A stretch of DNA of 64,000 bases. Origin: Salmonirosea aquatica. GTDB lineage: Bacteria; Bacteroidota; Bacteroidia; Cytophagales; Spirosomataceae. How positions within the stretch are numbered: the stretch's first letter is position 1; every line of letters begins with the position of its first letter. Where the stretch lies: the NCBI RefSeq assembly GCF_009296315.1, contig NZ_WHLY01000002.1, forward strand, positions 1,116,001 through 1,180,000, written 5' to 3'. The notes beneath the pieces are model-generated. The model did not search any database. It was given only the letters and a program-made list of their open reading frames with translations, and was not told the origin of the DNA. A program made the position numbers and the translations under genes. Below are positions 4,801-37,113 of this stretch, piece after piece.

Positions 4801-4991
4801 ACGACCGTTACGCCGGGCAAAGGTGTGTTGTCTTCGGCGGAATTAATCACACCGGTCACGGCCTGTCCCTGGGCCATCAGTAGCTGGGGGAGCAGGCCCA
4901 GCCCAAGTAGCAGTACCATCATTAGGAAACTGTGCGGGACTGCGACCCGTTGCTGCACGCTCCTGTTTCGACTCGTAAACATTCTTCTCAT
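1893..4991 (-). CDS. SusC/RagA-family TonB-dependent outer-membrane transporter (pair 1, no STN domain)
   Basis: This 1032-residue SusC-type TonB-dependent transporter imports oligosaccharides across the outer membrane. A signal peptide ends near residue 40 (LLMAQ). A carboxypeptidase-regulatory-like domain follows (about 45-115), then the SusC signature LNEVVVVGYGTQ (about 120-131) and a plug domain (about 135-250) with YVVDGIP and GANGVVLISTKRG. The remainder is the beta-barrel, ending in a typical aromatic-terminated strand (GLNVRF). Unlike the SusC at 13,400-16,921 it lacks an N-terminal STN domain, so it is not expected to signal to a FecR partner by itself. Upstream lies a shortened FecR-like protein about 40 bp away; downstream is its SusD. 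An alternative start three residues in (Met4) is possible. Confidence 0.95.
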   Translation of the reverse strand: MRRMFTSRNRSVQQRVAVPHSFLMMVLLLGLGLLPQLLMAQGQAVTGVINSAEDNTPLPGVTVVLKNSTVGTTTDQDGRYRITTTGNNPTLIFSAVGFATQEVAVGNRSTVDVTLAVDQKTLNEVVVVGYGTQKKSQVTGAIVQVSSKEIQEMPITNLGQALQGRAAGVDVTQTGSKPGTVPKILIRGRRSFNATNDPLYVVDGIPLAGGYEDMNPSDVASMEILKDATATAIYGARGANGVVLISTKRGAAKGKTTVSYDTYAGVSKPLDKVQLFSGPEFAEFVREAYRATGGYKDANGNAVPTGVADPVADAKVAVLGGDPAVAKGIANGTDTDWQSLILQNGFVQNHSIGIQGGSDRTQFYLSGGYFKDQGISEGLDFTRMSLRANLDHQVNSFLKVGLSSYMMYSIRNGENLNPYQFTLQQNPLAAVYNDDGSLKFSPTNDALLTNPLAEIVPGAQVDETKKYRIFNSIFAEAQIIEGLKYRVNFGPDFTIARYGRFIGAQTNARKGGAPQASNENRFGFNYTLENILSYNKNFGGKHNLGITALHSIQRDNYETFRADVQGVPAESQQFYSLGTASSILSTPSNLIQWTINSFMARINYDYNDKYLLTLTLRRDGSSRFGENTKYGNFPGVAVGWNISNEPFLKNAPWIDLMKIRAGWGQVGNQGVAPYQTQGLLSRTAYAWGSTAAFGYRPSTIGNPDLRWETSSTANVGVDFSFLSGRVQGSLELYQTNTTALLLSDQLPGSIGFSAVTRNVGETRNRGIELGFTTINVNSGSGFKWSTDFTFMKNTEAIISLYNGKIDDVGNGWFIGRPLSTVFDYKKIGIWQSDEAEKAKSYASEVGQIKIQDTNNDGKINADDRVIQGSDVPKFSGGITNRFNFKGFDLSFFFYARVGNLIRSEFHRNLNQLAGRYQQIKVDYWTPNNPTNEFPRPKSNQEFPVYNTTLTYFDGTFVKLRNINFGYNFSPAVASKLGMESLRIYSSIQQPFIWSKYRSKYNGVDPETTDLNAGGSGVTPATSVYTLGLNVRF

Positions 4992-13399: not shown

Positions 13400-16300
13400 T
13401 TACAGACCGACATTGATACCGAACGAGTACGATTTGTTCAACGGATAGGAATCGCTCCGGTTACCAGCTTTCTCAGGATCGAGGCCCCGGAAGCTGGTGA
13501 TGGTGGCCAGGTTCTCCGACGATACGAACAGGCGAACATTGCTCAGACGAACCTTGTTTACCCAGGCTTTGGGAACATTGTACCCGAACTGTACATTTTT
13601 GAGGCGCAGGTAGCTCAGGTCGTCGAGCCAGAATGTCGTTTCTTCCCGGTTGGCATTGCCGCTCAGGCGTGGCCAAGACCCGTCGCGGTTTTCTACCGAC
13701 CAGGGCTCGGTTAAGTGCTGATAAGTAGAAGCGTAGCGCTGGTTTCCGAAGTTCACATTATTGTAGATATTGAGCCAATAATCTTTACGGCCCGTTGCTC
13801 CTTGTAATAATACCGTCAGATCGAAGCCCTTCCAGGATACGCTGCCATTCAGACCGAAGTACGTAGTAGGACGATCACGTTGGGAGTGGGGATCGGCTGT
13901 TTTATCGTTGCTATCGATACGGCCGTCGCCGTTAATGTCCTTACGAAGAATGTCCCCCGGTGAAGCACCCTGTGGAGTGGCGTTGTACACATCCTGCCAG
14001 GTTTGGGCAATACCTAGGTCTTGGTATGAATACACAAAGCCGTAGGGCATGTTCAGAAAGACCTGATTTCCTGAATTTTGTGATGTTCTACTCAAGAATT
14101 CATTCCATTTTTCCAATACTGTAGCATTGTGAGAAGCATTCAGGTTAACGCTGTAATCGATTCCGCCGAAGCGGTCACGCCAGGTAATATTAGCCTCCAC
14201 ACCCCGGTTGCGCATATTACCGATGTTCTTGCGGGGTGCGTCGTAGGCACCAGTAAGCAGGATGGACATCTCCGAAGGACGGTTCATACCCGTAGTCAAG
14301 CGGTCATAGTAGTCGAGCTCAGTGGTCAGGCGGTTGTTGAGAAAGCCCAGATCCAGACCTACGTTGAATACCGTAGTCGTTTCCCACGAAAGGTTTTTAT
14401 TTACCAGTTTCTGGTTTACGAATCCTTTCACGATGCTATTGCCAATGTAGTAGTTGCTGGCGTTCAGGGTTGACTGCTGCTCGTAGCGTCCTACCCCACT
14501 ATTGTTCCCTAATGCACCGTAGGATACCCGCAGTTTACCGTTCGACATGAAGCGGTCCGTAAACGTCTTGATGAAAGATTCTTCGGTAAAGCGCCATCCC
14601 AAAGCTGCTGACGGGAAGAAACCAAACTGGTAACCTTCCAGGAACCGCGATGAACCATCGTAGCGGAAGTTCAATTCTACCAGGTACTTGTCAAAGGCGG
14701 CGTAGTTAAGACGCCCAATATACGACTTCAATCCCTCTGTGCTCGAATTACCACCCGTTGACTGGATATCGGTGAGCGCGGCATCGATTTCGTGCAGGTT
14801 AGGGTACAGGCGATCATTACGTGAACTGGCCTGGTAGCGATCCTTCCAATATTCTTCGCTATACACAAACAAAGCCGTTAAATCGTGATTCCTGGCGATG
14901 GTTTTCTTGTAGGTCAAACGCGCATTCATCAGGGTTTTGTAGCCCGTGTTGGTGTAGTTACCTACCCCGGCATTGGGCCCTACGTACACCCGGCTACCGA
15001 ACGACTCGGTCTGGAAGTTATACGACCGATTGGGCGTGTTAGCGTTCCAGCGGAACTGGTTGTAGTAGTTCAAAGCGTAATCCACGCGGGCAGTCAGTCC
15101 CGGAATCGGCGACCAGTCCAGATAGAAGTTGGTGTTGGCTTCCTGACGATCCTGACGGTTCAGGTTGTTAACGTATAGCGTATAAGGGTTATAGGCTTGC
15201 GGGTCTTCATTGTAAGCCATCACCCCCCCAAAGTACCCCGATACGGGATCATAGGGAACAATACCCGCGATAGCATACTGCATATCAAAACCCGCCGTAT
15301 TGCCCGGATCATCATCCGTAAATCCATCCGCCAGCGCGTAGGTCAGGTTGGACCAGTTGCCCGTGAAACGTACCCCGACGTTGATATTGTCGCGAATTTT
15401 GTAATCGTAGTTGAAGCGGGCATTGTATCGCTTGTAGTCGTTATTGACCTGCAAACCCTTTTCATCCATCATACCCACCGAGATGAAGAAGTTGGATCGA
15501 TCACCGCCACCGGAAGCCGAAATATTGTGGTTTTGCACCGCACCCGTCCGTAAAATTACGTCCCACCAGTCGGTGCTCGGGTAGCGTAGCGGATCAACTT
15601 TGCTCAAAGCCAGCCACTGGTCGATGGTACCATCCTTAAAGAAATAGTTGGACCGCAACGTATTCACAGCTGCCGACTGCTGGTGTAGCGTGAGCGCACG
15701 GGCATAATCAGGCAGGAAGTCATAGGCGCGGGTAGGAGTCTGGAACGCGTAATTACCCGAGTAATTGATACTGGCTTTGGCCTGTCCTTTCCCCGTTTTG
15801 GTGGTAATAAGAATAACGCCGTTGGCCGCCCGTGATCCGTAAACAGCAGCTGAGGTAGCATCTTTCAGTACCGTAATGGTCTCGATATCATTAATGTTAA
15901 GACGGTTAATGTCCACATCGGGCATTCCGTCCACGACAACCAGCGGACTGGCGTTATTGACTGTACCCAAGCCCCGGATGATCAGCGCGGCACCATTGCG
16001 GCCCGCCATCCCCGTAGATTGCGTTACGGCCAGACCTGGTACCAGACCCGACAAGCCCGACGATACATTGGTCAGAGAGCGGCTGGCGATTTTTTCGTCA
16101 ATGTTGACCGTAGCCACCGCGCCCGTTACGTTGGCCCGCTTCTGGGTACCGTACCCTACGACCACGACTTCTTCCAGGGCTTTGACGTCGGTCAGCAAAT
16201 TCACATTTACAATACTCGACGAGCCTACTTCGACTTCCTGAGTAATGTAGCCAATGGCACTGAACACCAGCACCGAGGTAGGTCCGCTCACGTTGAGCGT

Positions 16301-16921
16301 GAAACGCCCTTCGGCATCTGTGGAGGTACCATTGACGGTACCTTTTTCCAGCACACTCACACCCGGAACGGGCTCCTGCTTGTCGCCAGTCACCTGGCCC
16401 GATACGGCGAGCATTTGCACCTTTAGGGCATTTTCAAGCATCCGGGCCACCGTTTCGGACTGAAACGGTGCACGCATGCCTGACTTGGGCTCACGGGCGG
16501 CCATTTGCAGTGGTTGCATTTCCACCGCGCTGAGCTGTTCGGTAACGATTACTTTCTTCGTTGGATTGGGCTGTACATAAATGGTTTCCTTGATCCGCCG
16601 GAAACTGAGCCCGGTTTCTTTCGAGATGGAACGTAGTACAGCACCTAGGCTCGTGTTGACAAAATTGTGGGTGACCTTCTTCTTTTCCACCATTTCCTGG
16701 GTGTATTGAAAGTTCAGATCCGTTTTCTCCACAATTTTCACAAAGGCATCTTCAAGGCTCAGGTTACGCAGATTGGCCGAAATGTAAATATCCTCGATGC
16801 TTTTCTCACGGTCGGCCCGATCGTCGGCCCACAGAATTCCCACAGAAAAGACCTGGCAAATCGCTCCGATCAACGCGTACCTTGCCACCGCCAAAATTTG
16901 TGGTAGTAGTTTGAAATTCAT
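13400..16921 (-). CDS. SusC-family TonB-dependent transporter with N-terminal STN signalling domain (pair 2)
   Basis: This 1173-residue transporter differs from the other three SusC proteins by an N-terminal secretin/TonB short (STN) domain at about residues 65-116 (LSLEDAFVKIVEKTDLNFQY to FRRIKETIYV). STN domains touch the periplasmic part of FecR anti-sigma factors and pass on substrate occupancy. After a linker come a carboxypeptidase-regulatory-like domain (about 174-250), the ALEEVVVVGYGTQ segment, a plug with VVVDGMPDV and AANGVILITTKTG, and a long barrel ending in SYSFGINVGL. The FecR gene is 138 bp upstream and the sigma gene lies before that, giving the classic trans-envelope cascade. 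The signal peptide end is not sharp (near GILWADD). Import substrate is probably the fragments made by the lyases in this locus. Confidence 0.95.
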   Translation of the reverse strand: MNFKLLPQILAVARYALIGAICQVFSVGILWADDRADREKSIEDIYISANLRNLSLEDAFVKIVEKTDLNFQYTQEMVEKKKVTHNFVNTSLGAVLRSISKETGLSFRRIKETIYVQPNPTKKVIVTEQLSAVEMQPLQMAAREPKSGMRAPFQSETVARMLENALKVQMLAVSGQVTGDKQEPVPGVSVLEKGTVNGTSTDAEGRFTLNVSGPTSVLVFSAIGYITQEVEVGSSSIVNVNLLTDVKALEEVVVVGYGTQKRANVTGAVATVNIDEKIASRSLTNVSSGLSGLVPGLAVTQSTGMAGRNGAALIIRGLGTVNNASPLVVVDGMPDVDINRLNINDIETITVLKDATSAAVYGSRAANGVILITTKTGKGQAKASINYSGNYAFQTPTRAYDFLPDYARALTLHQQSAAVNTLRSNYFFKDGTIDQWLALSKVDPLRYPSTDWWDVILRTGAVQNHNISASGGGDRSNFFISVGMMDEKGLQVNNDYKRYNARFNYDYKIRDNINVGVRFTGNWSNLTYALADGFTDDDPGNTAGFDMQYAIAGIVPYDPVSGYFGGVMAYNEDPQAYNPYTLYVNNLNRQDRQEANTNFYLDWSPIPGLTARVDYALNYYNQFRWNANTPNRSYNFQTESFGSRVYVGPNAGVGNYTNTGYKTLMNARLTYKKTIARNHDLTALFVYSEEYWKDRYQASSRNDRLYPNLHEIDAALTDIQSTGGNSSTEGLKSYIGRLNYAAFDKYLVELNFRYDGSSRFLEGYQFGFFPSAALGWRFTEESFIKTFTDRFMSNGKLRVSYGALGNNSGVGRYEQQSTLNASNYYIGNSIVKGFVNQKLVNKNLSWETTTVFNVGLDLGFLNNRLTTELDYYDRLTTGMNRPSEMSILLTGAYDAPRKNIGNMRNRGVEANITWRDRFGGIDYSVNLNASHNATVLEKWNEFLSRTSQNSGNQVFLNMPYGFVYSYQDLGIAQTWQDVYNATPQGASPGDILRKDINGDGRIDSNDKTADPHSQRDRPTTYFGLNGSVSWKGFDLTVLLQGATGRKDYWLNIYNNVNFGNQRYASTYQHLTEPWSVENRDGSWPRLSGNANREETTFWLDDLSYLRLKNVQFGYNVPKAWVNKVRLSNVRLFVSSENLATITSFRGLDPEKAGNRSDSYPLNKSYSFGINVGL

Positions 16922-19486: not shown

Positions 19487-22400
19487 ATGAAAAAATGCTA
19501 CCCGCGTTTTGGTAGCGGCACAGTATTCATGTGCCTGCTACTGACATTCATTTTCCACACCTCCTACGCTCAGGATCGCACGGTGACCGGAAAAGTAATC
19601 GACGACCAGTCGGGTACGGGCCTGCCCGGCGCTACAGTTACGGTAAAAGGTGGCAATGCCCTCACGGGAAGTACCACCGATTCTGAGGGTAATTACTCAG
19701 TACGGGTCAGCCCGGGTGCCACTTCACTGGTGTTCTCGTTTATAGGGTACCGTAACAAGGAAGTGGCAATTGACAACCAAAGTGTCATCGATGTCCAACT
19801 CAATAGCGATGTAAACGCTCTGTCGGAGGTTATTGTTACAGGATACGGTTCCCAGTCCAAGCGCGACATTACCGGGGCCGTTACGACCGTAAATGCACAG
19901 GATTTGAAAGCCGTTCCGGCCACTACTTTTGCCCAGCAGCTACAGGGACGTGCCTCGGGGCTCAATGTAGTGAACGATGCTACTCCCGGCGGTAACGCTA
20001 CGGTACGTATACGGGGTTTCGGTACCATTGGTAACAACGATCCCCTGTTTATTATCGACGGCGTGCCCACCGAAAACTCGGGCAACCTGAACCCGAATGA
20101 CATTGAAACCATTCAAATCCTGAAAGATGCGTCGGCAGCGTCTATCTACGGTTCCCGGGCGGCCAACGGTGTAGTCATCATTACGACCAAGCGCGGTAAA
20201 GTAGGCAAGCCTGTCATCTCCTTCAACGCCTACTACGGTACCCAGGCCCCGTCCAGAAGTCCTGACGTTCTTAACGCCAAAGAACTTGGCGAATACCTGT
20301 ACCTGGCCGATAAATACGCGGGCAAAACACCCACACACGGCCAGTATACTTTCGGACCCAATGGCGAGGTGACTATCCCCGACTATGTGTTCCCCAGTGC
20401 AGGCAAGGAAGGTACCCCCGATGTGAACCCTGACCGCTACTCGTTGAAACCCGGCAACATTTACGCGATTACCAAGTCAGCCGATACCGACTGGTGGAAA
20501 GTGCAAACCCAGTCCGCTCCGATCCAGAACTACCAGCTCGGGGCTACGGGAGGAACCGAAAACAGCCATTATGCTATTTCGTTGGGCTATTTTAGTCAGG
20601 ACGGTGTCGTAAAATTCATCGGATACGACCGGTATACAATCCGGGCAAACACGGAATTTTCGGGCTTGAATCAGAAACTCCGCATTGGCGAAAACCTGTC
20701 GGTGTCATTCGATAACCGGAAGGGCGGCTTCGGCAACAACCAGGAGCAGAATGCCGTTTCGGGTTCATACAAGCACCACCCTTTGCTACCCATTTATGAC
20801 ATCGCGGGCAATTTTGCGGGCTCACGCGGCTTAAACCTGGGCAATAACTCCAATCCCTACGCTACCCTGTACCGCGAGCAGGACAACCGTACCATGCGGC
20901 TACGGGTGTTTGGCAATGTATACGGGGAATTCGACATTCTCCCTAACCTGACGGTCAAATCCAGTCTGGGTATCGACGGCAGCAGTCAACGGGGGCGTTA
21001 CATTGGTCGGGCCAACCCCGAGTATGTAGAGGGTAGCTTCAACAATGGCTCCACTTCGGCGGACGAATACTACTACCAGTGGGTGTGGACCAATACCCTA
21101 TCCTATTCCAAAGAATTTGGCACTGATCATAAATTCGATGCGTACGTGGGGACGGAGGCGATCCGTGAATTCAAGGAAATTTTCGGTGCCAGCCGTAACG
21201 GTTATGCCTTCGAGATTCCTTCTATCATCAGCTACCTCGACCTGGGCGACGCTACTAAGGCTTCCAACTACGGTCGGGTGGATCGGGATTATACCCTTTT
21301 CTCTTTGTTTGGAAAGGCCAACTACTCCTTTAGAGACAAATATCTGGCGCAGGTCATTCTTCGGAATGACGCCTCTTCGCGCTTTCTTAGTGCATCAAGG
21401 AGTGCCACGTTTCCGGCTTTCAGCCTCGGATGGCGGGTGTCGGAAGAAGGCTTCCTCAAAGGTGTGAGCTGGATCAATGATATGAAACTCCGTTATGGTT
21501 GGGGAAAAACGGGTAATCAGAAAATCGGCGACTACAACGCCTACACGACCTACCGGTCCGATATTTTCCACGCGGGGTACCCCATCAACGGTTCAGGCAG
21601 TCAACCCACGATTGGCTACGATGCGGCCTCTCTCGGTAACCCCGACGCCAAATGGGAAACCACTACCTCGAACAACCTGGGCATGGATGCAACCCTATTC
21701 AACAGTTCCCTGACGCTCGAGCTCGATTTCTGGAATCGGCGCACCAGTGATATGCTGTTCTCCATTCCGCTCACCTACACGGTAGGCGACGCCAGCGCAC
21801 CTTCATTCAACGTGGGTGAAATGAACAACAAAGGAATCGACCTGGGCCTCAACTATCGAAACTCGCTCGTAAACGGCGACTTGCGGTATTCGATCGGGGC
21901 CAACTACTCGATGTACCGTAATAAGGTAATCAGGCTGACCGACAGTGAAAGCACGAAGTACTTCGGATACGGCTCACGCACCGACGCCGTAACGCTGACG
22001 CAGGCCGGCCTACCCCTCTCCTCGTTCTACGGGCTTACAGTACTGGGCATTTTTCAATCGAAGGAAGAAGCCGACGCCTGGGCACCCTATGGTACCTACA
22101 ACAAGGAGGGCAAGTTCAAGATTAAGGATACTAACAACGATGGTGTCATCAATCCCGACGACCGAAGCGTCATAGGGAGCCCCCACCCGAAGTTCAACTA
22201 CGGCGTGAACCTGAACCTGGGCTACAAGGCGTTCGACCTGACGGTATTCGGCAATGGTGTGGTGGGCAACGACATTTTCAACTATACCCGATTCTTTGCC
22301 GACTTTAACACGTTCCAGGGCAACCGCTCCAAGCGTGCCTTGTACGATGCATGGCAACCGACCAACAAGGGGGGTACCACGCCCATCATGGACGCCAACG

Positions 22401-22681
22401 ACCAGATCAGCAGCCGCCCTTCGACCTACCTCCTCGAAAAGGGTACCTACTTCCGCCTGAAAAATGTCCAGCTTACGTACACCCTACCCCGAAACCTGGC
22501 TTCCAAAATCGGTTTCTCCAACTTCCAGCTGTACCTGCAGGGCCAGAATATGTTCACCATTACAAAATACACGGGTCTGAACCCCGAAATCCAGACCGGA
22601 GAGGACAATACGATCGGTTTCGATGGAGGGTACATGCCCGTATCGCGTAATTTCCTGTTGGGTCTCAATGTTTCTTTTTGA
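19487..22681 (+). CDS. SusC/RagA-family TonB-dependent transporter (pair 3)
   Basis: This 1064-residue transporter has a signal peptide ending HTSYAQ (residue 28-29), a carboxypeptidase-regulatory-like domain (about 32-108), the signature ALSEVIVTGYGSQSKRDITG (about 110-130), and a plug with RIRGFGTIGNNDPLFIIDGV and AANGVVIITTKRG. The barrel ends in FLLGLNVSF. It has no STN domain. It opens the plus-strand locus and is followed 74 bp later by its SusD. It resembles the SusC at 24,751 closely in the plug region (RIRGFxxxGNNDPL, IDGVPT), indicating that the two plus-strand pairs are paralogs. Substrate unknown, and no enzyme gene accompanies it. Confidence 0.95.
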   Translation: MKKCYPRFGSGTVFMCLLLTFIFHTSYAQDRTVTGKVIDDQSGTGLPGATVTVKGGNALTGSTTDSEGNYSVRVSPGATSLVFSFIGYRNKEVAIDNQSVIDVQLNSDVNALSEVIVTGYGSQSKRDITGAVTTVNAQDLKAVPATTFAQQLQGRASGLNVVNDATPGGNATVRIRGFGTIGNNDPLFIIDGVPTENSGNLNPNDIETIQILKDASAASIYGSRAANGVVIITTKRGKVGKPVISFNAYYGTQAPSRSPDVLNAKELGEYLYLADKYAGKTPTHGQYTFGPNGEVTIPDYVFPSAGKEGTPDVNPDRYSLKPGNIYAITKSADTDWWKVQTQSAPIQNYQLGATGGTENSHYAISLGYFSQDGVVKFIGYDRYTIRANTEFSGLNQKLRIGENLSVSFDNRKGGFGNNQEQNAVSGSYKHHPLLPIYDIAGNFAGSRGLNLGNNSNPYATLYREQDNRTMRLRVFGNVYGEFDILPNLTVKSSLGIDGSSQRGRYIGRANPEYVEGSFNNGSTSADEYYYQWVWTNTLSYSKEFGTDHKFDAYVGTEAIREFKEIFGASRNGYAFEIPSIISYLDLGDATKASNYGRVDRDYTLFSLFGKANYSFRDKYLAQVILRNDASSRFLSASRSATFPAFSLGWRVSEEGFLKGVSWINDMKLRYGWGKTGNQKIGDYNAYTTYRSDIFHAGYPINGSGSQPTIGYDAASLGNPDAKWETTTSNNLGMDATLFNSSLTLELDFWNRRTSDMLFSIPLTYTVGDASAPSFNVGEMNNKGIDLGLNYRNSLVNGDLRYSIGANYSMYRNKVIRLTDSESTKYFGYGSRTDAVTLTQAGLPLSSFYGLTVLGIFQSKEEADAWAPYGTYNKEGKFKIKDTNNDGVINPDDRSVIGSPHPKFNYGVNLNLGYKAFDLTVFGNGVVGNDIFNYTRFFADFNTFQGNRSKRALYDAWQPTNKGGTTPIMDANDQISSRPSTYLLEKGTYFRLKNVQLTYTLPRNLASKIGFSNFQLYLQGQNMFTITKYTGLNPEIQTGEDNTIGFDGGYMPVSRNFLLGLNVSF

Positions 22682-24750: not shown

Positions 24751-27700
24751 ATGAAAAAAATCTACCTTGGTAAGTTCAGAAATGCAGGTCTGCTCCTATT
24801 TCTGACCCTATTGAATCTCGCTGCTCTTGCCCAGAACCGCCGGGTCACGGGGCAGGTCACCGATGGTTCGAACACCGGAATCCCAGGTGTAACAGTACTG
24901 GTGAAAGGCTCACAGGTAGGAGCCAACACCGATGGCAGTGGTAACTTCGCAATTAATGTACCGGCTGACAATGATGTGCTGGTCTTCAGCTTTGTGGGCT
25001 TCAAGTCCCAGGAAGTGACAATTGGTAACCGCTCCGTCATCGATGTGCGGATGGAAGAGGATGTTAATGCTCTGGAAGAAGTAGTCGTGACGGGCTACAC
25101 GTCAGAAAAAAAGAAAGACATCATCGGCTCGGTATCGGTCGTGGATACCAAGTCTACCTTACAGCAGCCTAGCTCCAACCTGGGCAATATGTTACAGGGC
25201 CGGGCTTCGGGCGTTACGGTAAGCGGCACGGGCGCGCCTGGTGCGGCGGCCAAGGTACGGATTCGGGGTTTTACCTCATTCGGTAATAACGATCCACTCT
25301 ACATCATCGATGGGGTACCTACTGATAACGCCAATGCGCTCAACCCACAGGACGTTGCCTCCATTCAGGTACTCAAAGATCCGGTATCGGCTTCCATCTA
25401 CGGCTCTCGCGCCGCCAACGGCGTAATTGTTGTCACAACGAAACAGGGCGGTGCCAAAACGGAAATCTCCTACGACGGCTACTATGGTATCCAAACCATC
25501 CCCAACCGTGCCTACCCCTCCATGATGAACACCCAGCAGTACTATGAATATCTGCAAAGGGCAGCCGAAGGAGCCGACATCCCGTTTAAGAGTAATGTTT
25601 TCCAAAACGGAATCCCCAAGTACCTGGTCACGAACTCAAATTTTGTGGCTAATCCCACGGATGCAACGAACCCCAACTTCGACCGCTACAATTATGATCC
25701 GTACAGCTACGACAACACCTACCAGATCGCTGAAACCAGCCCCGGCACGGACTGGTTTCATGAAATAACCCGACCCGCCCCCGTCCAAAGCCACCAGCTT
25801 ACGGCCACCGGGGGAGGCGATAAAGGCACCTACGCCTTGGGTATCAACTACTTCGGTTCCGACGGGGTATTTAAAGAGACGGGATTCAACCGGGTGACCA
25901 TTCGGGCCAACACGCGCTTCAAGCCCAGGAAATGGCTGACACTTGGTGAGAATGTCCAAATGGCTTTTTCCCGGTCTTACGGGAGTAGCGGCAATCCTTT
26001 CGACTTGGGCGGAGGACTCGATTTTTCGGGTGAAAGCTCTCCCTGGTACAATGCCTACCGGGTACCTCCTTTTATTCCGGTGCGTGATATTCAGGGAAAT
26101 TTCGCGGGTACCTCGTTGGGTGAAGCAGGAAGTAACATCACCGCTCCCGTGTCCTTGGCGCGGGGACGGGATAACAAATACAGCGGGCTCAATCTGTTGG
26201 GAAACCTATTCGCCCAGATCGAAATTGCCAAGGGCCTGATGCTCTCGTCCTCGTTCGGGATCGACCAGCGCTACGGTAATGGCTATAATTTTACGTTCAT
26301 TACGCCCGAGAAGGCCGAACCTACCCGCAACAACAACTACTCGGAATACTTCTTCAAAGGCGGTTCCTGGACCTGGACCAACAGCCTGCAGTATTCGCTG
26401 GACATCAACGAGCGGAACACGCTCAAGCTCTTTGCGGCGACCGAATCCATTTTCGACCAATTCAGAGGAATCAACGGTACCCGAACCGACTATGACTTCA
26501 ACGATCCGGCTTTCCGCTCGCTCAACACCGGTAAGAACCTCCCTCAAAATGGCGGTTCGCCCTCAACGCCCCGTACCCTGTACTCTATTTTCGGAAAAGC
26601 CGAATACCAGTTCAACGACAGGTACCTGTTCAGCGCCACGCTCCGGCGCGACGCCTCCTCGGTATTCGGCCCCGACAATCGGGTCGGTATCTTCCCGGCC
26701 GTAGGGGTAGGTTGGCGCTTGTCGGAGGAAAGTTTCCTGAAGGGCGTATCGGCGATCAACGACCTCAAGCTTCGTGCGGGCTGGGGCCAGCTGGGTAGCC
26801 AGCGCAACGTGGGCTCGGCCAACGCCTACTCATTCTATGGTGCATCGCTGACCGGAACGGCTTACGACCTCAACGGTACCAACGGCCTGCCAGTCATTGG
26901 CTATCGCCCGTCCATTATCGGAAACCCGAACACCAAATGGGAGGCTGCCGAAATGGTCAATGTGGGCCTGGATGGTAGTTTGTGGGGCGGAAAACTCGAC
27001 TTCACGGTAGAGTACTTCAACAACAAAACCAAGGATTTGCTCGTAACGCGTCAGCCCAACGGCCTGGAACCTTCGGTGGGCCAGCCCCAGATCAACGTAG
27101 GTACCATGATCAACAAAGGGGTCGATGCGCAGTTTACCACCCGGGGAAAAATCACCAAAGACCTTACTTTCGATGTGGGCCTGACCTTTACCCATTATGT
27201 GAACGAGGCGGTGAAAATTGACGCCGAAGGTTCATCCGCTCTGTTGTTTGGCGCAGGGCGCCTGGGTAATATCCAGCGGGTCGAGGGCGGCAAGCCGCTG
27301 GCTTCCTTCTGGGGATGGGTCGTGGACGGCATTTTCCAATCCCAAGCCGAAGTTGATGCGCATGCCGACCAAAGCTACAAGCGGGTGGGTTCCTGGAAGT
27401 TACGGGACATCAATGGCGACGGTATCATCAATGGAGATGACCAGACCTACATCGGCAACCCGATTCCTAAGTTCCAGATAGGTACCGATATTTCATTGAA
27501 ATATAAAGCGTTCGATTTCCAGACGTTCCTGTTCTGGAATTATGGCAACGACCTTTACAATTACACCAAGTGGGCCACGCACCTGCGGGGTTTCGTGGGT
27601 GGCTATAATACTGAGGTACTGACCGACTCCTGGACGCCCCAAAACACCAGTGCCTCGCTGCCCATCCTGAATGCCAACGACACCTATTCGGGTTCCATTT

Positions 27701-27966
27701 CGACTTCTTACTATGTAGAGAGTGGCTCGTTCCTGCGGGCGCGCCAGATGCAGCTTGGCTACACGCTACCGGCCAATTTGCTGAGTAAGATCGGCCTGAG
27801 CCGGGCGCGCGTGTATGTACAGGGGCAAAACATCTTTACCGTCACAAATTATTCGGGACCAGATCCGGATATTGGCATCCTGGGCAACGAATTGCAGATG
27901 GGTGTCGATCAGTTCCGTACGCCCTCGCCGCGCACCATCATTTTCGGGGTAAACCTGGCTCTCTAA
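24751..27966 (+). CDS. SusC/RagA-family TonB-dependent transporter (pair 4)
   Basis: This 1071-residue transporter has a signal peptide ending ALAQ (residues 25-28), a carboxypeptidase-regulatory-like domain (about 32-105), the signature ALEEVVVTGYTSEKKKDIIG (about 108-127), and a plug with RIRGFTSFGNNDPLYIIDGV and AANGVIVVTTKQGG. The barrel ends in TIIFGVNLAL. There is no STN domain. It is a paralog of the SusC at 19,487. The upstream 160 bases are AT-rich, consistent with its own promoter, although I see no exact TAnnTTTG box. Its SusD partner begins 35 bp downstream. Confidence 0.95.
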   Translation: MKKIYLGKFRNAGLLLFLTLLNLAALAQNRRVTGQVTDGSNTGIPGVTVLVKGSQVGANTDGSGNFAINVPADNDVLVFSFVGFKSQEVTIGNRSVIDVRMEEDVNALEEVVVTGYTSEKKKDIIGSVSVVDTKSTLQQPSSNLGNMLQGRASGVTVSGTGAPGAAAKVRIRGFTSFGNNDPLYIIDGVPTDNANALNPQDVASIQVLKDPVSASIYGSRAANGVIVVTTKQGGAKTEISYDGYYGIQTIPNRAYPSMMNTQQYYEYLQRAAEGADIPFKSNVFQNGIPKYLVTNSNFVANPTDATNPNFDRYNYDPYSYDNTYQIAETSPGTDWFHEITRPAPVQSHQLTATGGGDKGTYALGINYFGSDGVFKETGFNRVTIRANTRFKPRKWLTLGENVQMAFSRSYGSSGNPFDLGGGLDFSGESSPWYNAYRVPPFIPVRDIQGNFAGTSLGEAGSNITAPVSLARGRDNKYSGLNLLGNLFAQIEIAKGLMLSSSFGIDQRYGNGYNFTFITPEKAEPTRNNNYSEYFFKGGSWTWTNSLQYSLDINERNTLKLFAATESIFDQFRGINGTRTDYDFNDPAFRSLNTGKNLPQNGGSPSTPRTLYSIFGKAEYQFNDRYLFSATLRRDASSVFGPDNRVGIFPAVGVGWRLSEESFLKGVSAINDLKLRAGWGQLGSQRNVGSANAYSFYGASLTGTAYDLNGTNGLPVIGYRPSIIGNPNTKWEAAEMVNVGLDGSLWGGKLDFTVEYFNNKTKDLLVTRQPNGLEPSVGQPQINVGTMINKGVDAQFTTRGKITKDLTFDVGLTFTHYVNEAVKIDAEGSSALLFGAGRLGNIQRVEGGKPLASFWGWVVDGIFQSQAEVDAHADQSYKRVGSWKLRDINGDGIINGDDQTYIGNPIPKFQIGTDISLKYKAFDFQTFLFWNYGNDLYNYTKWATHLRGFVGGYNTEVLTDSWTPQNTSASLPILNANDTYSGSISTSYYVESGSFLRARQMQLGYTLPANLLSKIGLSRARVYVQGQNIFTVTNYSGPDPDIGILGNELQMGVDQFRTPSPRTIIFGVNLAL

Positions 27967-29886: not shown

Positions 29887-30906
29887 ATGGAGCGTTACTG
29901 GCGATACCTGATTCCTGCCATACTCACCCTGCTTTTCATGGGTATATGTAGCAATACGCAGTATTACTACGTATATCTGCTCCTACTCGCAGCCAATATT
30001 CTGAACATCTACTGGGGTGAATTCAAAAATGGGGAATTACGCGACGAACTGCGTTTTTTTTACCGGTCCCGGGCTGCTTACACCATAAAATGCATAAATG
30101 CGGTGATCCTGATCGGACTAATCGTGTGGGGAATCGTTTTTGTGGATCGGCAAAACTTCTCCTGGGTACACCTTATTGGTTTCAGCGTAACCACCGGACT
30201 GCTTACCGGCTGCTTCATCGTCACACTGGCGCACGATCTGCTGCACAGCCACTCCAAAATCCAGAAAGCCTTGTCGGTGCTTCTACTCACCGCGGCCGGC
30301 ATCCCCCATTTTGCGACGGAGCACGTTTGCGGCCATCACCGGGACATCGGCCTACAGGAAGATCCCACAACCGCCAAACTGAACGAAAATTTCTATTCCT
30401 ATTTCTTCAAAATCACCTGTCTGAACCTGCGGGAAAGCTACCTTACCCAGTATGGTTTACCGACCTACCTCCGCCGTAAAATTCTGCGCACCAATCTGGC
30501 CATGCTGGCGCTGCTGATTACGGTATGGGGCTGCATTTTTGTTTTTAGCCGCCATCCCGCCGCGTGTCTGACCTTTTTTGTTCTGCAGGGATTCATTTCG
30601 TATGTACTGTATGAGCTGATCAATTACATTCAGCATTATGGGCTCTTCCGTCAGGATCGCCGAGACGACATTACACTCCAATTGTCCTGGAACTGCTACT
30701 ACAAATACACCAACTACATCCTGTTTTTGCTACCTCTGCATTCGCTGCATCACCTACCCGTCCGTAGCCGAAAGATAACCGATCTAAAATCAGGCCCTCG
30801 GATGCCCTACCTGTATTTCCTGATGATCACGATGGCGCTGCTGCCTCCCCTATGGTTCAGTAAAATGAACGGCCTGGCTATGCGTTACAATCCAAGGCCA
30901 TCATGA
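29887..30906 (+). CDS. AlkB-like membrane di-iron hydroxylase/desaturase (copy 1)
   Basis: This 339-residue integral membrane protein carries the histidine boxes of the alkane-hydroxylase (AlkB)/fatty-acid desaturase superfamily: HDLLH (116-120), EHVCGHHRDIGLQEDP (145-160), NYIQHYGL (246-253) and LHSLHH (284-289). NYIQHYGL is very close to the NYIEHYGL box that distinguishes AlkB and xylene monooxygenase from ordinary desaturases. About six membrane helices surround the boxes. It should bind two irons and use oxygen to hydroxylate or desaturate an alkyl chain. The ATGA overlap with the next gene (a beta-barrel protein) shows translational coupling. No rubredoxin or ferredoxin gene is nearby. 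The substrate is unknown. The neighbouring PagL-like gene raises the possibility of an outer-membrane lipid acyl chain rather than an alkane. Confidence 0.85.
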   Translation: MERYWRYLIPAILTLLFMGICSNTQYYYVYLLLLAANILNIYWGEFKNGELRDELRFFYRSRAAYTIKCINAVILIGLIVWGIVFVDRQNFSWVHLIGFSVTTGLLTGCFIVTLAHDLLHSHSKIQKALSVLLLTAAGIPHFATEHVCGHHRDIGLQEDPTTAKLNENFYSYFFKITCLNLRESYLTQYGLPTYLRRKILRTNLAMLALLITVWGCIFVFSRHPAACLTFFVLQGFISYVLYELINYIQHYGLFRQDRRDDITLQLSWNCYYKYTNYILFLLPLHSLHHLPVRSRKITDLKSGPRMPYLYFLMITMALLPPLWFSKMNGLAMRYNPRPS

Positions 30907-31523
30907 AACAAAAAACCTTTCTGTGGTATGTAGCTATCCCATTGCTTTGTATGGTGGGCAGAGATTGCCCGGCTCAGGACAATTTTGGGCTGCGCTATGT
31001 GTTTGGTACCTTACATCCCGGCGGTGATAAAACTGCACCACTGCAACCCCGGAAACTGGACAAAAATGCAGTAGCCGTAATTAACTGGGGCTTCATTGCC
31101 TCCTATGAGCGCTACATCTACAAAAAACGCCTGGCCCTAAAAGTGGCGCAGGGCGGGTACAGCGACTGCGCCGAACTGTTTGCCGGGCATACGCATCTGG
31201 GCTTCCGGGTCAATTTCCTGAATGGCCGCCGGCATTACCTCGAGTTCGGCTTTGGACCTACTTTCGTGTACCGCCAGAGTTGGAATCGGCTCGACGGGTA
31301 CGTACAGCAAACGCCCCGGCTAAAAAACTCGGAGCACTGGCAGTATGCTTTCGTATGGTACGGGGGCGAACTGGAATATGACTACAAAATCAGTAAGAAC
31401 ATCGATCTGAATATCAATGTCATTCCCGGCTATCCCGATTTCTATACCTTTGCCATCGGAGCCCGGTACTGGCTGCGTCCCATTCCGGCCAACCGGGACT
31501 GGAACAAGCGCAAAGAGTACTAA
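30903..31523 (+). CDS. putative outer-membrane beta-barrel protein, unrecognised family
   Basis: I do not recognise this 206-residue protein by family. It has an N-terminal signal-like segment (FLWYVAIPLLCMVG, ending about DCPAQ), then alternating amphipathic strands rich in Tyr, Phe and Gly, including GFRVNFLNGRRHYLEFGFGP and YTFAIGARYWLRP, typical of a small outer-membrane barrel. The start overlaps the stop of the AlkB-like gene by four bases, so the two are co-translated. It converges with the PagL-like gene, with only three bases between the stop codons. A role with the AlkB-like enzyme in outer-membrane lipid handling is possible but is an inference. Confidence 0.75.
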   Translation: MKQKTFLWYVAIPLLCMVGRDCPAQDNFGLRYVFGTLHPGGDKTAPLQPRKLDKNAVAVINWGFIASYERYIYKKRLALKVAQGGYSDCAELFAGHTHLGFRVNFLNGRRHYLEFGFGPTFVYRQSWNRLDGYVQQTPRLKNSEHWQYAFVWYGGELEYDYKISKNIDLNINVIPGYPDFYTFAIGARYWLRPIPANRDWNKRKEY

Positions 31524-31526
31524 ACT

Positions 31527-32570
31527 TCAAAACGTGTAGCCCGCTGCCAGCTCTACATGAGCCGCCCGGAAACCGTGGGCTTTGATGGTAGCCCCGATCG
31601 AGAATCCGTTGGCAATCTGCTTTTGCAGCTCGCAAGGGTACCAGGCAATTCCGACTTTGGCGTAGGTTCTGCTTTCATCGGCTATGGGCGGAGTCAGGTA
31701 GACACCGAACCCGTACCGCGTAACCAAGTGCGCGAAAAGTACCTCTTCCTCAAGGTACCCCGCCAGTTGAGTTTTTTCTCCTTTTCCCACCCTTCCTAGT
31801 TCCAGGCCAGCTCCTGTTCGAAAACGGGTACTGTGTTGATAAAAAACCAGTAGCCCAGCCTGGATATTTTGCTGAATCTGATTCTCCGATTTCTTGTAAT
31901 CATAAAGTCCGTCAGCCAGGTAGAAGCGATACCGCCAGCGTCTAAAGTCCGTTGCCAGTTTGTACGGAATGCGTGTTGGTAATTCACCAAAGGGAAAATA
32001 AACCAGTTGCCCGTACCCCAGCCAGGAATTCAGCCCCGCGTTGGGCCGCACCAGGTTTCCGTTGGAAATATGGCTCGCCACGATACCGACCTTGCCAGCA
32101 AACCGGGCTCGGGTTTTGAACTGGTACCCTATATCCAGAATTGAAGAAGCATTCAACTTACTTCCCAAGGGTACCTTTTGCATTCTTTCAAAATCGCCCG
32201 TAACGTAGGCCAATCCGGTACCGTGCTTGATTTGCCATTGACCTACCTTCGATTCAGCCACGTTAAATTCCAGATAGGGAATCAAAACGAAAACACTACC
32301 TGGTCCGCTGGTACCCGGAAACCCGCGGGCCGAGATTTGTAGACCCATTTGTGGGTACCTATGGTCGGCCTGCCAGTACTTTTCTCCGGAAGTCTGCTGG
32401 TTGATCTCCAACACAAAACCATACTGCCGGTAGGCGGGAATTTTATCCGTTGAAAAACTGGCTCCTCCCTGAAACCCCGACTGAATGGATAAGCCCTGCC
32501 GTGGAAAATCCGTCTGTGCAAAAACACAGCGCGTCATGAAAAGTAAAAGAATGCCGGAGCTAAGCCTCAT
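31527..32570 (-). CDS. PagL-like acyloxyacyl hydrolase (lipid A 3-O-deacylase family)
   Basis: This protein of about 347 residues begins at the ATG at 32570, which opens a signal peptide (MRLSSGILLLFMTRCVFAQ). A longer in-frame start at 32606 would add 12 polar residues. It is a predicted outer-membrane beta-barrel. The segment ASHISNGNLVRPNAGLNSW fits the PagL/acyloxyacyl-hydrolase motif, in which a His and a Ser separated by one residue form the catalytic site (here HIS), followed by the conserved Asn-rich stretch. PagL removes the 3-O acyl chain from lipid A at the outer membrane. The C-terminus ends in the aromatic residue of a barrel strand (AAGYTF). It overlaps the stop of the upstream AlkB-like gene by a few bases, so the two are coupled. 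It is longer than classical PagL (about 170 residues), as is usual for Bacteroidota members. Confidence 0.8.
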   Translation of the reverse strand: MRLSSGILLLFMTRCVFAQTDFPRQGLSIQSGFQGGASFSTDKIPAYRQYGFVLEINQQTSGEKYWQADHRYPQMGLQISARGFPGTSGPGSVFVLIPYLEFNVAESKVGQWQIKHGTGLAYVTGDFERMQKVPLGSKLNASSILDIGYQFKTRARFAGKVGIVASHISNGNLVRPNAGLNSWLGYGQLVYFPFGELPTRIPYKLATDFRRWRYRFYLADGLYDYKKSENQIQQNIQAGLLVFYQHSTRFRTGAGLELGRVGKGEKTQLAGYLEEEVLFAHLVTRYGFGVYLTPPIADESRTYAKVGIAWYPCELQKQIANGFSIGATIKAHGFRAAHVELAAGYTF

Positions 32571-33605
32571 ACTTTTCCGGTCGGGCATGGGTAGGTACCT
32601 TCTCATCCATCAGCCGAAACCAGCGGGCGGGAATCCACGCCCTGACCAGCATCTTAGCGAAAGGCAGGGGCATGGATAAGCCGGCAAAATCGCGGATTTC
32701 GTCCAGACGTTCTTCCCTTAGATGATGGATGGAGTGCACGGGCATCATATAGTGCATCCAGGTCGAGGTACGGTAGTAGCAATTCCAGGCATGGTGCAGT
32801 TGTACCGCTTCGGCCTGCCCGATCTGGTTTGTTTTCCGCCGCAGTCCGTAGTGCTGGATGTAGGTTACCGATTCATAAATCAGTGTGACCAGTATGAACT
32901 GCGCCAAAACACAAGCGAATACCCGACCGCCCAGGAACAAGGTACCCATCAGATAAAAAATACAAGCCAGCAGCCGCGCTACGTTGCCCCGGATGATACT
33001 ACGTTTGCGCGGACGGGGAAAGGTACCCCCCGAAAAAAAAGCATGCGGACGCGTGCCCCAATGGAACGCCGAAAGTAGGTATAAATCCCCTCTCCTACCC
33101 GCGCCGTGGCCGGATCGCCGGAGGTACCTACGTGGCGGTGGTGGATATAGATATGGTCCGCTTCGAGGTAGAAAAAGCCATTTTGCAAAAGCAGCGCCGT
33201 CGATAGCAAACGATCCATTGTACGAGTGGAGTGCATCAGGTCATGGGCGAGGGAAATGGCAAAGTTGCTGTTGATGATGACGACGGAATAAATAAAAACC
33301 ACCAGCGCCCAGCCCGCCAGCTCGTGCTGAGCCAGAAATATAAGTACCCAACCATTGAAACCCACAAAGAAAAGTCCGGATGCCGTCTTGAGGTAGGTCA
33401 TCAACGGACTATGGTGAAAAAAATCGTATTCGGCCACTACCTCCGCCACGCTGAATTGGCCGATTGACTTACGCGCCAGCCCAACGATCAGAATGATTCC
33501 CATTGCCACCCACACGAAATTGGTAGCCGCAGTCACCATAAAAACTGTGGTAATGAGCACCGGCAACAAATAGGGAAGCGCGCGCCTGGATGTGGATGAT
33601 TGCAT
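32560..33605 (-). pseudogene. AlkB-like membrane di-iron enzyme (copy 2), split by one frameshift
   Basis: Two minus-strand frames together make one AlkB-like protein of about 348 residues, almost the same length as copy 1 (339). The first frame starts at the ATG at 33605 (MQSSTSRRALPYLLPVL) and holds HDLMH and EADHIYIHHRHVGTSGDPA. It then runs into a stop at 32979. The second frame continues with RKRSIIRGNVARLL, VTYIQHYGL and VHSIHH up to the stop at 32560. The frames join at 33026-33040, where the plus strand has six C, one G and eight A. One extra base in either run restores the reading frame (for example giving FFSGGTFPRPR). All histidine boxes are intact, so the break is recent, a sequencing error, or a recoding or phase-variable site. 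The last 11 bases overlap the PagL-like start. Confidence 0.85.
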
Positions 33606-36039: not shown

Positions 36040-36614
36040 TTAGACTTCGACGGAAATGTTGTATTTGTGCAGCAAGCCAACCACGCCGGTCAGTGAGAAT
36101 TTGGCCTTTTTAAGACGATTGTTTTCGGGATCGATCGAATAATTGGACGCCGTTCGAAAATCGGCTTTTTCCAGAATCGTGCAGTCGAAGGTCGCTCCGG
36201 CCAAATCGCATTCCACAAAACTTGATTCCGTAAAGTTAGCCTCGGCGAAATCGACTTCCTGCATCGCGCAGTTTTTAAACCGCGTCTTTTTCAGCGTCAG
36301 TTTGTAAAAGGAAGACAGGTTCAGCTGGCAGCCGTCGAAGTGCATTTCCAGCAAAAACGGATTGCAGTTTTCAAAGTGCAGCCCTACCATTTTGCACCGA
36401 ACGAACCGGACATTTTTGAACGCGGTGTTGGAGAGTTTGGCGAGGGTGAGATTGCACTCTTCGAATTCGCAATCCACAAAGGTACCCCCGACAGATCGGT
36501 GCCATTGAAGTCACAATCGGTGAAGGTACAGGTTTCGTACTCTCCTCTAGGAAGTTTTTCGGCCGTGAAAGATTGGTGGATGAATTCCTGATTTTCGGTA
36601 TAGGATGAGTTCAT
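36040..36614 (-). pseudogene. pentapeptide-repeat protein split by one frameshift
   Basis: Two overlapping minus-strand frames combine into a pentapeptide-repeat protein of about 191 residues. The first starts at the ATG at 36614 (MNSSYTENQEFIHQSF) and contains YETCTFTDCDFNGTDLSG, then loses the pattern. The second continues with VDCEFEECNLTLAKLSNTAF and many further A(D/N)LXX-type repeats to the end at 36040. The break lies at the five-C run at 36485-36489 (five G on the coding strand) directly attached to a GGTACC site. One more base gives GTDLSGGTFVDCEFEE with continuous repeats. Pentapeptide repeats form a right-handed quadrilateral beta-helix. Function ranges from gyrase protection to unknown, and this one has no assigned role. 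The clean repeat pattern on both sides suggests a very recent event or a sequence error. Confidence 0.85.
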
Positions 36615-36642
36615 GCGCTTCTTTTTTGGGAAGGAGAGTACC

Positions 36643-37113
36643 CTAGGCACTTACCCGGCGGTACTTAGTGCCGATGTAATCCACAAAATCCGGCTCCAGA
36701 CCTTGCTGCCGAATGATAGTCTGAATCTGGGCGCGGTGGTGAATGGAATGGTAGTTCAATTGCAGAGCGATGTCTTGGGGGGTGGCAGCCCAGAAGGTAC
36801 CATCATAGCCGACAAAGGTGGTTTCGCTGGATAATTCCTCTTCCGTCTTCGACAAAATGTAATTTTGCCAAAGCTCCAGACTTTCGGCCCACTTCTCTTC
36901 AAGATCTTCATAGTTGTACACCGGGTCCCACCAACTCATCGCCATAGCGTTTGGGTCCTGGCTGATTCGTGCCATCCATTTCAACTGGGAATTGATCAAA
37001 TGGCTAAACAACCGGATACTTTCCGAGGGGTCGGGAAGTTCCTTGATTTTGACCAACAAGGTGCGGTTGGTGAGATCATTGAACTGGAAAGTATCCAGTA
37101 GGTATTCTTTCAT
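36643..37113 (-). CDS. DinB-family protein
   Basis: This protein of about 156 residues is a DinB four-helix-bundle member. Candidate metal ligands are the His in LFSHLINSQLKW (near residue 38) and those in QLNYHSIHHRAQI (near residue 125). I chose the ATG at 37113 (MKEYLLDTFQFNDLTNRTLL), the usual family N-terminus; an in-frame ATG at 37143 would add ten residues. DinB proteins are often induced by damage or stress and some act as thiol transferases. No specific reaction can be given. It is about 28 bp upstream of the pentapeptide-repeat gene and may share its transcript. Confidence 0.87.
   Translation of the reverse strand: MKEYLLDTFQFNDLTNRTLLVKIKELPDPSESIRLFSHLINSQLKWMARISQDPNAMAMSWWDPVYNYEDLEEKWAESLELWQNYILSKTEEELSSETTFVGYDGTFWAATPQDIALQLNYHSIHHRAQIQTIIRQQGLEPDFVDYIGTKYRRVSA

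Follow-up and report, generated by a model that had tools for sequence, protein, structure and literature searches.

A 64,000-nucleotide (nt) stretch of the Salmonirosea aquatica genome (the window, throughout) contains a compact unit of four genes, in which an AlkB-like enzyme gene (copy 1) and the gene of a small putative outer-membrane barrel on the plus strand converge with a PagL-like gene and a second AlkB-like gene (copy 2) on the minus strand. The arrangement is more than chance, since four other genera have it complete although their flanks are otherwise nearly unrelated. The reading that we favour, tentatively and with a confidence a little short of even, is that these genes form a self-contained, probably transferable module that would remodel an acyl-chain-bearing membrane lipid in two compartments. 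The features of the locus are as follows (lengths in amino acids, aa).

29887-30906, plus strand: copy 1, an AlkB-like membrane di-iron enzyme with nine iron-binding histidines (His9) (339 aa, intact; Pfam FA_desaturase, PF00487, 3.7e-21)
30903-31523, plus strand: small putative outer-membrane barrel (206 aa; N terminus signal-peptide-like; no family above the cut-off)
31527-32570, minus strand: PagL-like outer-membrane protein (347 aa; PF09411, 6.3e-12; PagL-type barrel plus a second beta-rich half)
32560-33605, minus strand: copy 2, whole span, in two parts in different frames
32560 to about 33021, minus strand: copy 2, C-terminal part (QHYG and HSIHH motifs; Pfam FA_desaturase)
about 33031-33605, minus strand: copy 2, N-terminal part (HDLMH and DHIYIHH motifs; Pfam FA_desaturase)
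33026-33040, minus strand: frame-change site of copy 2 (T8, C, G6 on the minus strand; likely an assembly indel)

In each couplet the enzyme gene comes first and an outer-membrane barrel gene follows immediately. As a preliminary description of this DNA had reported, copy 1 and the barrel gene overlap by ATGA, and the barrel and PagL-like genes converge with three bases separating their stop codons. The overlap that it gave for the other couplet is present too, at 11 nt (copy 2 stop codon at 32560-32562; PagL-like ATG at 32570, with an alternative open ATG upstream at 32606), but not as a plain ATGA. Its two AlkB-like enzymes hold good as to family, Pfam matching FA_desaturase to copy 1 and, separately, to the two parts of copy 2 (4.2e-8 and 1.2e-10), but copy 2 is split between two frames and the assumption that both copies are intact fails for this assembly. 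Searches of NCBIfam and PHROGs gave zero matches for the proteins submitted.

A conservation check set beforehand found the complete unit, its order and orientation unchanged, in four further genera: Rhabdobacter roseus, Dyadobacter sp. CY312, Spirosoma profusum BT702 and Cytophagaceae bacterium SCN 52-12, the last a metagenome-assembled genome (MAG). When genome contigs were scanned for the barrel, with one genome per species across 84,980 species, 38 stretches matched a pattern, and the scan yielded four relatives, every one of which lies inside the module. Family-wide, a close barrel occurs in 5 of 222 genomes, belonging to five different genera, and all five carry the complete unit; in three further genomes of the family the barrel match is weaker, and neither an AlkB-like nor a PagL-like gene lies within 1.5 kilobases (kb) of it. 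The barrel matched in 28 of the 390 genomes of an order sample, the close kind only in the window's genome and that of Spirosoma, and the enzyme in 51 of the 395 genomes of a phylum sample, with more than one match only in the window's genome. Comparing 20 kb of the window with 10.8-16.6 kb of the other four loci (E 1e-10), we found nothing common to the five flanks beyond the four genes except one long protein each in Rhabdobacter, Dyadobacter and Spirosoma, whose Dyadobacter member reads as sensor-kinase-like. Gene-end overlaps of 4 nt recur in Dyadobacter (copy 2/PagL-like) and in both couplets of Spirosoma, one of which uses a TTG start.

Gene trees add to this picture. In a tree of AlkB-like proteins (67 rows, with the window's two copy 2 parts and three duplicates dropped and the root not inferred), copies 1 and copies 2 each form one clade, and jointly one clade against 58 other AlkB-like proteins (100/99), among which are the AlkB of Rhodococcus, Marinobacter and Pseudomonas; an old duplication would be the simplest reading of their origin. 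Duplication of a whole couplet, with homologous barrels, was considered and rejected: the profile comparison of the barrels gave only a weak match, in the signal peptide, and paralogy can therefore be claimed for the enzymes only. Rhabdobacter and Spirosoma are joined in all four gene trees (98-100 bootstrap), and the concatenate rejects a pairing of Rhabdobacter with Dyadobacter (approximately unbiased test, p-AU 4.9e-65), whereas by RpoB Rhabdobacter falls close to Dyadobacter and to the window's genome. With nine RpoB sequences, the Rhabdobacter/Spirosoma pair is rejected (p-AU 1.1e-5), as is a grouping of Rhabdobacter with both Spirosoma (p-AU 0.011), and a position of Rhabdobacter outside SCN 52-12, G016, G000, G031 and Dyadobacter is not quite rejected (p-AU 0.054); with five RpoB taxa, the Rhabdobacter/Spirosoma pair is not rejected (p-AU 0.114). 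Since the four gene trees agree with one another and differ from RpoB, the genes have stayed together, probably with horizontal transfer, which these trees make likely without proving it. A contrary view is that the four genes lie together by chance, or make up an ordinary operon whose members are functionally unrelated. In its favour, the barrel and PagL-like families are both also found alone elsewhere, but because the convergent four-gene layout is the same in five genera, the flanks are nearly unrelated and the trees agree, we consider it very improbable.

For the active sites of the enzymes we use the FtAlkB numbering of PMC10113152. Sequence matches in the PDB are to AlkBs only for either copy (copy 1: 8f6t, 1.5e-36, and 8sbb, 6e-31; copy 2: 5.1e-32). 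We compared ten module rows with 55 ordinary Bacteroidota rows (52 distinct, three genes having been fetched twice); the motifs of the ordinary enzymes inspected, 29 from the phylum sample and 26 others, are all ordinary. All nine iron-binding histidines are kept in copy 1 of five genomes and in the complete copy 2 of four, and in the window the two parts of copy 2 supply the nine jointly. Glu271 is Gln in all ten module rows and Glu in all 55 ordinary rows; L264 is Tyr in 10/10 and Leu in 55/55; R310 and D313 are hydrophobic in every module row, against Arg in 55 and Asp in 54 of the 55 ordinary rows. The rubredoxin-facing positions R169 and R287 are non-basic in all module rows (one misaligned letter from the window's copy 2 C-terminal part, which does not cover R169, was not counted), against Arg or Lys in 40/55 and 50/55 ordinary rows, respectively; at the four remaining rubredoxin-facing positions both sets are variable, and we did not use them.

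In PMC10113152, Glu271 is described as an Fe2 ligand 3.2 Å from the substrate methyl in FtAlkB; PMC10110569 found the Glu side chain poorly resolved and places it near the iron. According to PMC10110569, Trp at L274, which by our own offset of ten is L264 of FtAlkB, abolished AlkB activity, and SCD1 has a water near this Glu position, because of which desaturase-like chemistry is conceivable. As residues are changed both at the iron site and in the substrate channel, copies 1 and 2 are AlkB-fold enzymes that are probably not alkane hydroxylases. They share with AlkB (FtAlkB 8f6t; 8sbb) the family by profile, the nine histidines and the HYG motif, and differ from it in forming a separate deep clade, in an HE..H to HD..H change in nine of the ten rows (copy 2 of SCN 52-12 keeps HE) and in having outer-membrane barrel genes, not those of rubredoxin or dehydrogenases, adjoining.

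For the PagL-like protein, PF09411 scores 46.2 bits in the window and 49.5 and 56.9 in the other two of three module members scanned, against a cut-off of 23, and the sequence match to 2erv, PagL of Pseudomonas aeruginosa, is 0.0019. In its structural model (mean predicted local distance difference test score, pLDDT, 63.7; second half low), the first half aligns with 2erv_B over 143 residues (Z 16.5, root-mean-square deviation 2.6, 21% identity, the highest identity in the table); other eight-stranded barrels score similarly (Z up to 18.1). The PagL catalytic residues we take to be H126, S128 and Glu140, and its His and Ser are kept, as H167 and S169, in all five module members. An eight-stranded barrel in the N-terminal half (143 residues aligned; PagL chain 146) and His-x-Ser are thus common to both, but the module protein has roughly double the length, adding a second half rich in beta strands that may make it one 16-stranded or two eight-stranded barrels, and has Asn in place of Glu140. 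Ordinary Bacteroidota PagL-like proteins share its length class (open frames mostly 345-445 aa) and the His-x-Ser...Asn pattern; the difference from them lies in the second half, where a G-H motif common in Bacteroidota relatives becomes [EG]EE, the module members having Glu where 23 of 28 readable relatives have His and none has Glu. Across the order, 91 of 148 genomes, counting that of the window, have a PagL-like match. In a different family of this order (G119, contig C39), about 4.5 kb separates an ordinary AlkB gene from a PagL-like one, which may be chance.

The small barrel is predicted to be eight-stranded (AlphaFold mean pLDDT 70.4, a middling confidence), and its fold matches OmpA, OmpW, PagP and PagL alike, at Z 14.6 to 12.5; the idea that it is itself an enzyme finds no support here. 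Its best Pfam indication, DUF481 at 0.015, falls below the cut-off, and it has zero Pfam OmpW matches and zero PDB sequence matches. Families missing from the fold-comparison tables were given no weight. AlkL/OmpW-type import beside AlkB is familiar from the OCT plasmid, and this invites a different explanation of the whole unit, in which the barrel imports an exogenous hydrophobic compound as AlkL, of the OmpW family, does, for oxidation by the two enzymes, with the PagL-like protein cutting an ester bond on the compound's way in. The two systems share a small eight-stranded barrel adjoining an AlkB-family enzyme, OmpW (Z 13.1) and AlkL (6qam, Z 10.6) are among the structures to which the barrel model aligns, and other AlkB relatives are reported to oxidise hydrocarbons and esters. 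There is no sequence match between the barrels, however, OmpA, PagP and PagL being as close in fold, and the Gln and Tyr found at Glu271 and Leu264 in 10/10 module rows speak against uptake and oxidation.

Genomic context bears on this alternative as well. The preliminary description had noted an absence of alkane-use genes nearby, and this holds for the ten nearby proteins that we scanned, out of some 50 genes in the window: none belongs to the rubredoxin, alcohol dehydrogenase or aldehyde dehydrogenase families, unlike the neighbours of three annotated AlkB loci on plasmids, all of which adjoin rubredoxin and two of which also adjoin aldehyde dehydrogenase. Weighing these points together, we regard import and oxidation of an exogenous compound as unlikely. 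Within the plasmid collection, enzyme matches have 25-31% identity and carry the annotation alkane 1-monooxygenase, fatty acid desaturase or none at all, and zero matches cover 80% of the query. On two plasmids of Pandoraea/Paraburkholderia (L154, L157), an autoinducer-binding regulator gene overlaps a small AlkB-like fatty acid desaturase gene, which encodes QHYG and an H.HHH motif and lies beside type IV secretion genes.

Copy 2, which changes frame in the window, is a single open frame in all four relatives, and 7 of the 69 SusC-family places of the same genome (our own clustering of 111 pieces) are likewise spread over more than one frame; for these reasons an uncorrected assembly indel is, in our estimate and with good though incomplete confidence, the likeliest cause. 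A run of at least five G occurs in six of eight SusC switch zones, where stretches of equal length from the same loci would lead one to expect 0.6, and the remaining two zones are without a run of five of any base. About 3 kb from the unit, a pentapeptide-repeat gene (36040-36650) is split at a G5 run relative to its orthologue in a close relative, G016, and in the SCN 52-12 MAG, by our reading of the junction, copy 1 has lost its last residues through a frame change. The split SusC and pentapeptide genes themselves may be uncorrected assembly indels or G-run slippage in surface genes.

Alternatively, copy 2 could be a genuine pseudogene, or its T8/G6 run could make it phase-variable, with the module decaying or switched in this strain. 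The frame change does lie within copy 2, true slippage at G runs would look identical to sequencing error in sequence, and in G016 (RpoB 95.8% identical), which has the same downstream flank as the window's genome, the module is nearly deleted: all that remains of it in the 14 kb read there is a scar of copy 1, internally deleted, the other three genes being absent. Against this, both parts of copy 2 are still open and conserved (61% and 58% identical to Dyadobacter, where copy 1 and the barrel reach 70-71% and the PagL-like protein 47%), and leftover indels occur elsewhere, in the SusC places with their G-run excess and in the pentapeptide gene. We consider decay or switching an appreciable possibility but an unlikely one.

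In a lipid-remodelling module of the kind that we favour, copies 1 and 2 would oxidise or desaturate lipid acyl chains in the inner membrane, perhaps at two different chain positions or in two successive steps, and the lipid would then reach the outer membrane by ordinary cellular transport. There, as its fold, His and Ser suggest, the PagL-like protein would hydrolyse an ester-linked acyl chain, and the small barrel may, at a guess, bind the lipid or the released chain, hand it on or move it. We infer a common lipid substrate for the four proteins; lipid A is a plausible guess, but an unproven one. The most specific version, a two-membrane relay in which a Gln/Tyr AlkB-fold subfamily edits lipid A or another complex outer-membrane lipid, the PagL-like protein cuts the modified chain, the barrel handles that chain and the cassette passes between genera, is doubtful in this full form, at about the level we gave to decay or switching of copy 2. 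In a bacterium of another group, Psychromonas marina, lipid A is reported to carry a doubly unsaturated chain whose enzymatic origin is unknown, the authors suggesting a desaturase (PMC4113819).

Another alternative, on balance an unlikely one, is a specialised lipid or lipid-derived signal, in which the enzymes make an unusual chain (poly-unsaturated, acetylenic or hydroxylated) that the barrels then release or expose. Accessory metabolism typically shows such a patchy distribution with signs of transfer, and the two Burkholderiales plasmids carry QHYG FA_desaturase-like proteins beside autoinducer-binding regulators; set against this, the four genes include no thioesterase, acyl carrier protein, ligase or regulator, and the substrate of known PagL-family members is lipid A.

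Several of our findings weigh against lipid remodelling by a dedicated module. The module is rare, at 5/222 family genomes, and is therefore not part of core lipid A synthesis. Overlap within couplets is not universal, with a 4-nt gap between copy 1 and the barrel in Rhabdobacter and gaps of 39 and 26 nt in the SCN 52-12 MAG. The modelled fold of the small barrel is not diagnostic, and its lower-scoring homologues are without an AlkB-like or PagL-like gene within 1.5 kb at 28/28 loci (28 of 29 were tested, L067 being left out); barrel homologues of family f12, tried as module carriers, had the barrel alone, with other neighbours, in the loci examined. The equivalent of Glu140 is Asn in 5/5 module members, which tells little, because Asn is also found there in all 29 ordinary Bacteroidota PagL-like proteins inspected, each with His-x-Ser. 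The change of Glu271 to Gln would also fit an enzyme that is weak or does not oxidise at all, and copy 2 is frame-broken in this assembly. Finally, a stand-alone rubredoxin proved not to be diagnostic and was rejected as a discriminator: PF00301 matched in 13 of 16 genomes, always within long frames (480-546 aa) and also in genomes without an AlkB match, and it was missing from G006 and G007, which have ordinary AlkB, as well as from the incomplete module genome G022.

Other features of the window are independent of the unit. The palindrome GGTACC occurs 119 times in positions 1-64000, against 15.8 copies expected from composition, and is also in excess in other loci of the same genome (66 against 8.6) and in the Rhabdobacter loci (26 against 6.0), whereas the Spirosoma loci favour TACGTA instead (25 against 5.5). 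Within 32 window genes its copies are spread over all three codon phases (50, 12 and 20 copies), with 37 outside those genes, and it is a possible highly iterated palindrome like cyanobacterial HIP1; an order-4 Markov expectation of 98.5 comes close to the observed count because the palindrome's own 5-mers are also raised. The first 30 kb contain four SusC-like genes (1893-4991, 13400-16921, 19487-22681 and 24751-27966), two of which adjoin a Pfam-confirmed SusD gene.

The component families of the unit are already known. The module and its Gln/Tyr subfamily are not described in the papers searched, open-licence articles of PubMed Central (PMC), none of which by title or abstract concerns this arrangement. 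AlkB-type genes are commonly used as markers of hydrocarbon degradation, and a barrel-linked nine-histidine subfamily with a changed Glu and channel would be a false positive in hydrocarbon surveys. The Gln subfamily is at the same time a natural test of the role of Glu271. To our knowledge, no AlkB-family enzyme is known to act on envelope lipids, and those of the module would be the first if the two-membrane relay is true; should the module edit lipid A or another envelope lipid, this would give Bacteroidota an oxidative route to alter the outer membrane.

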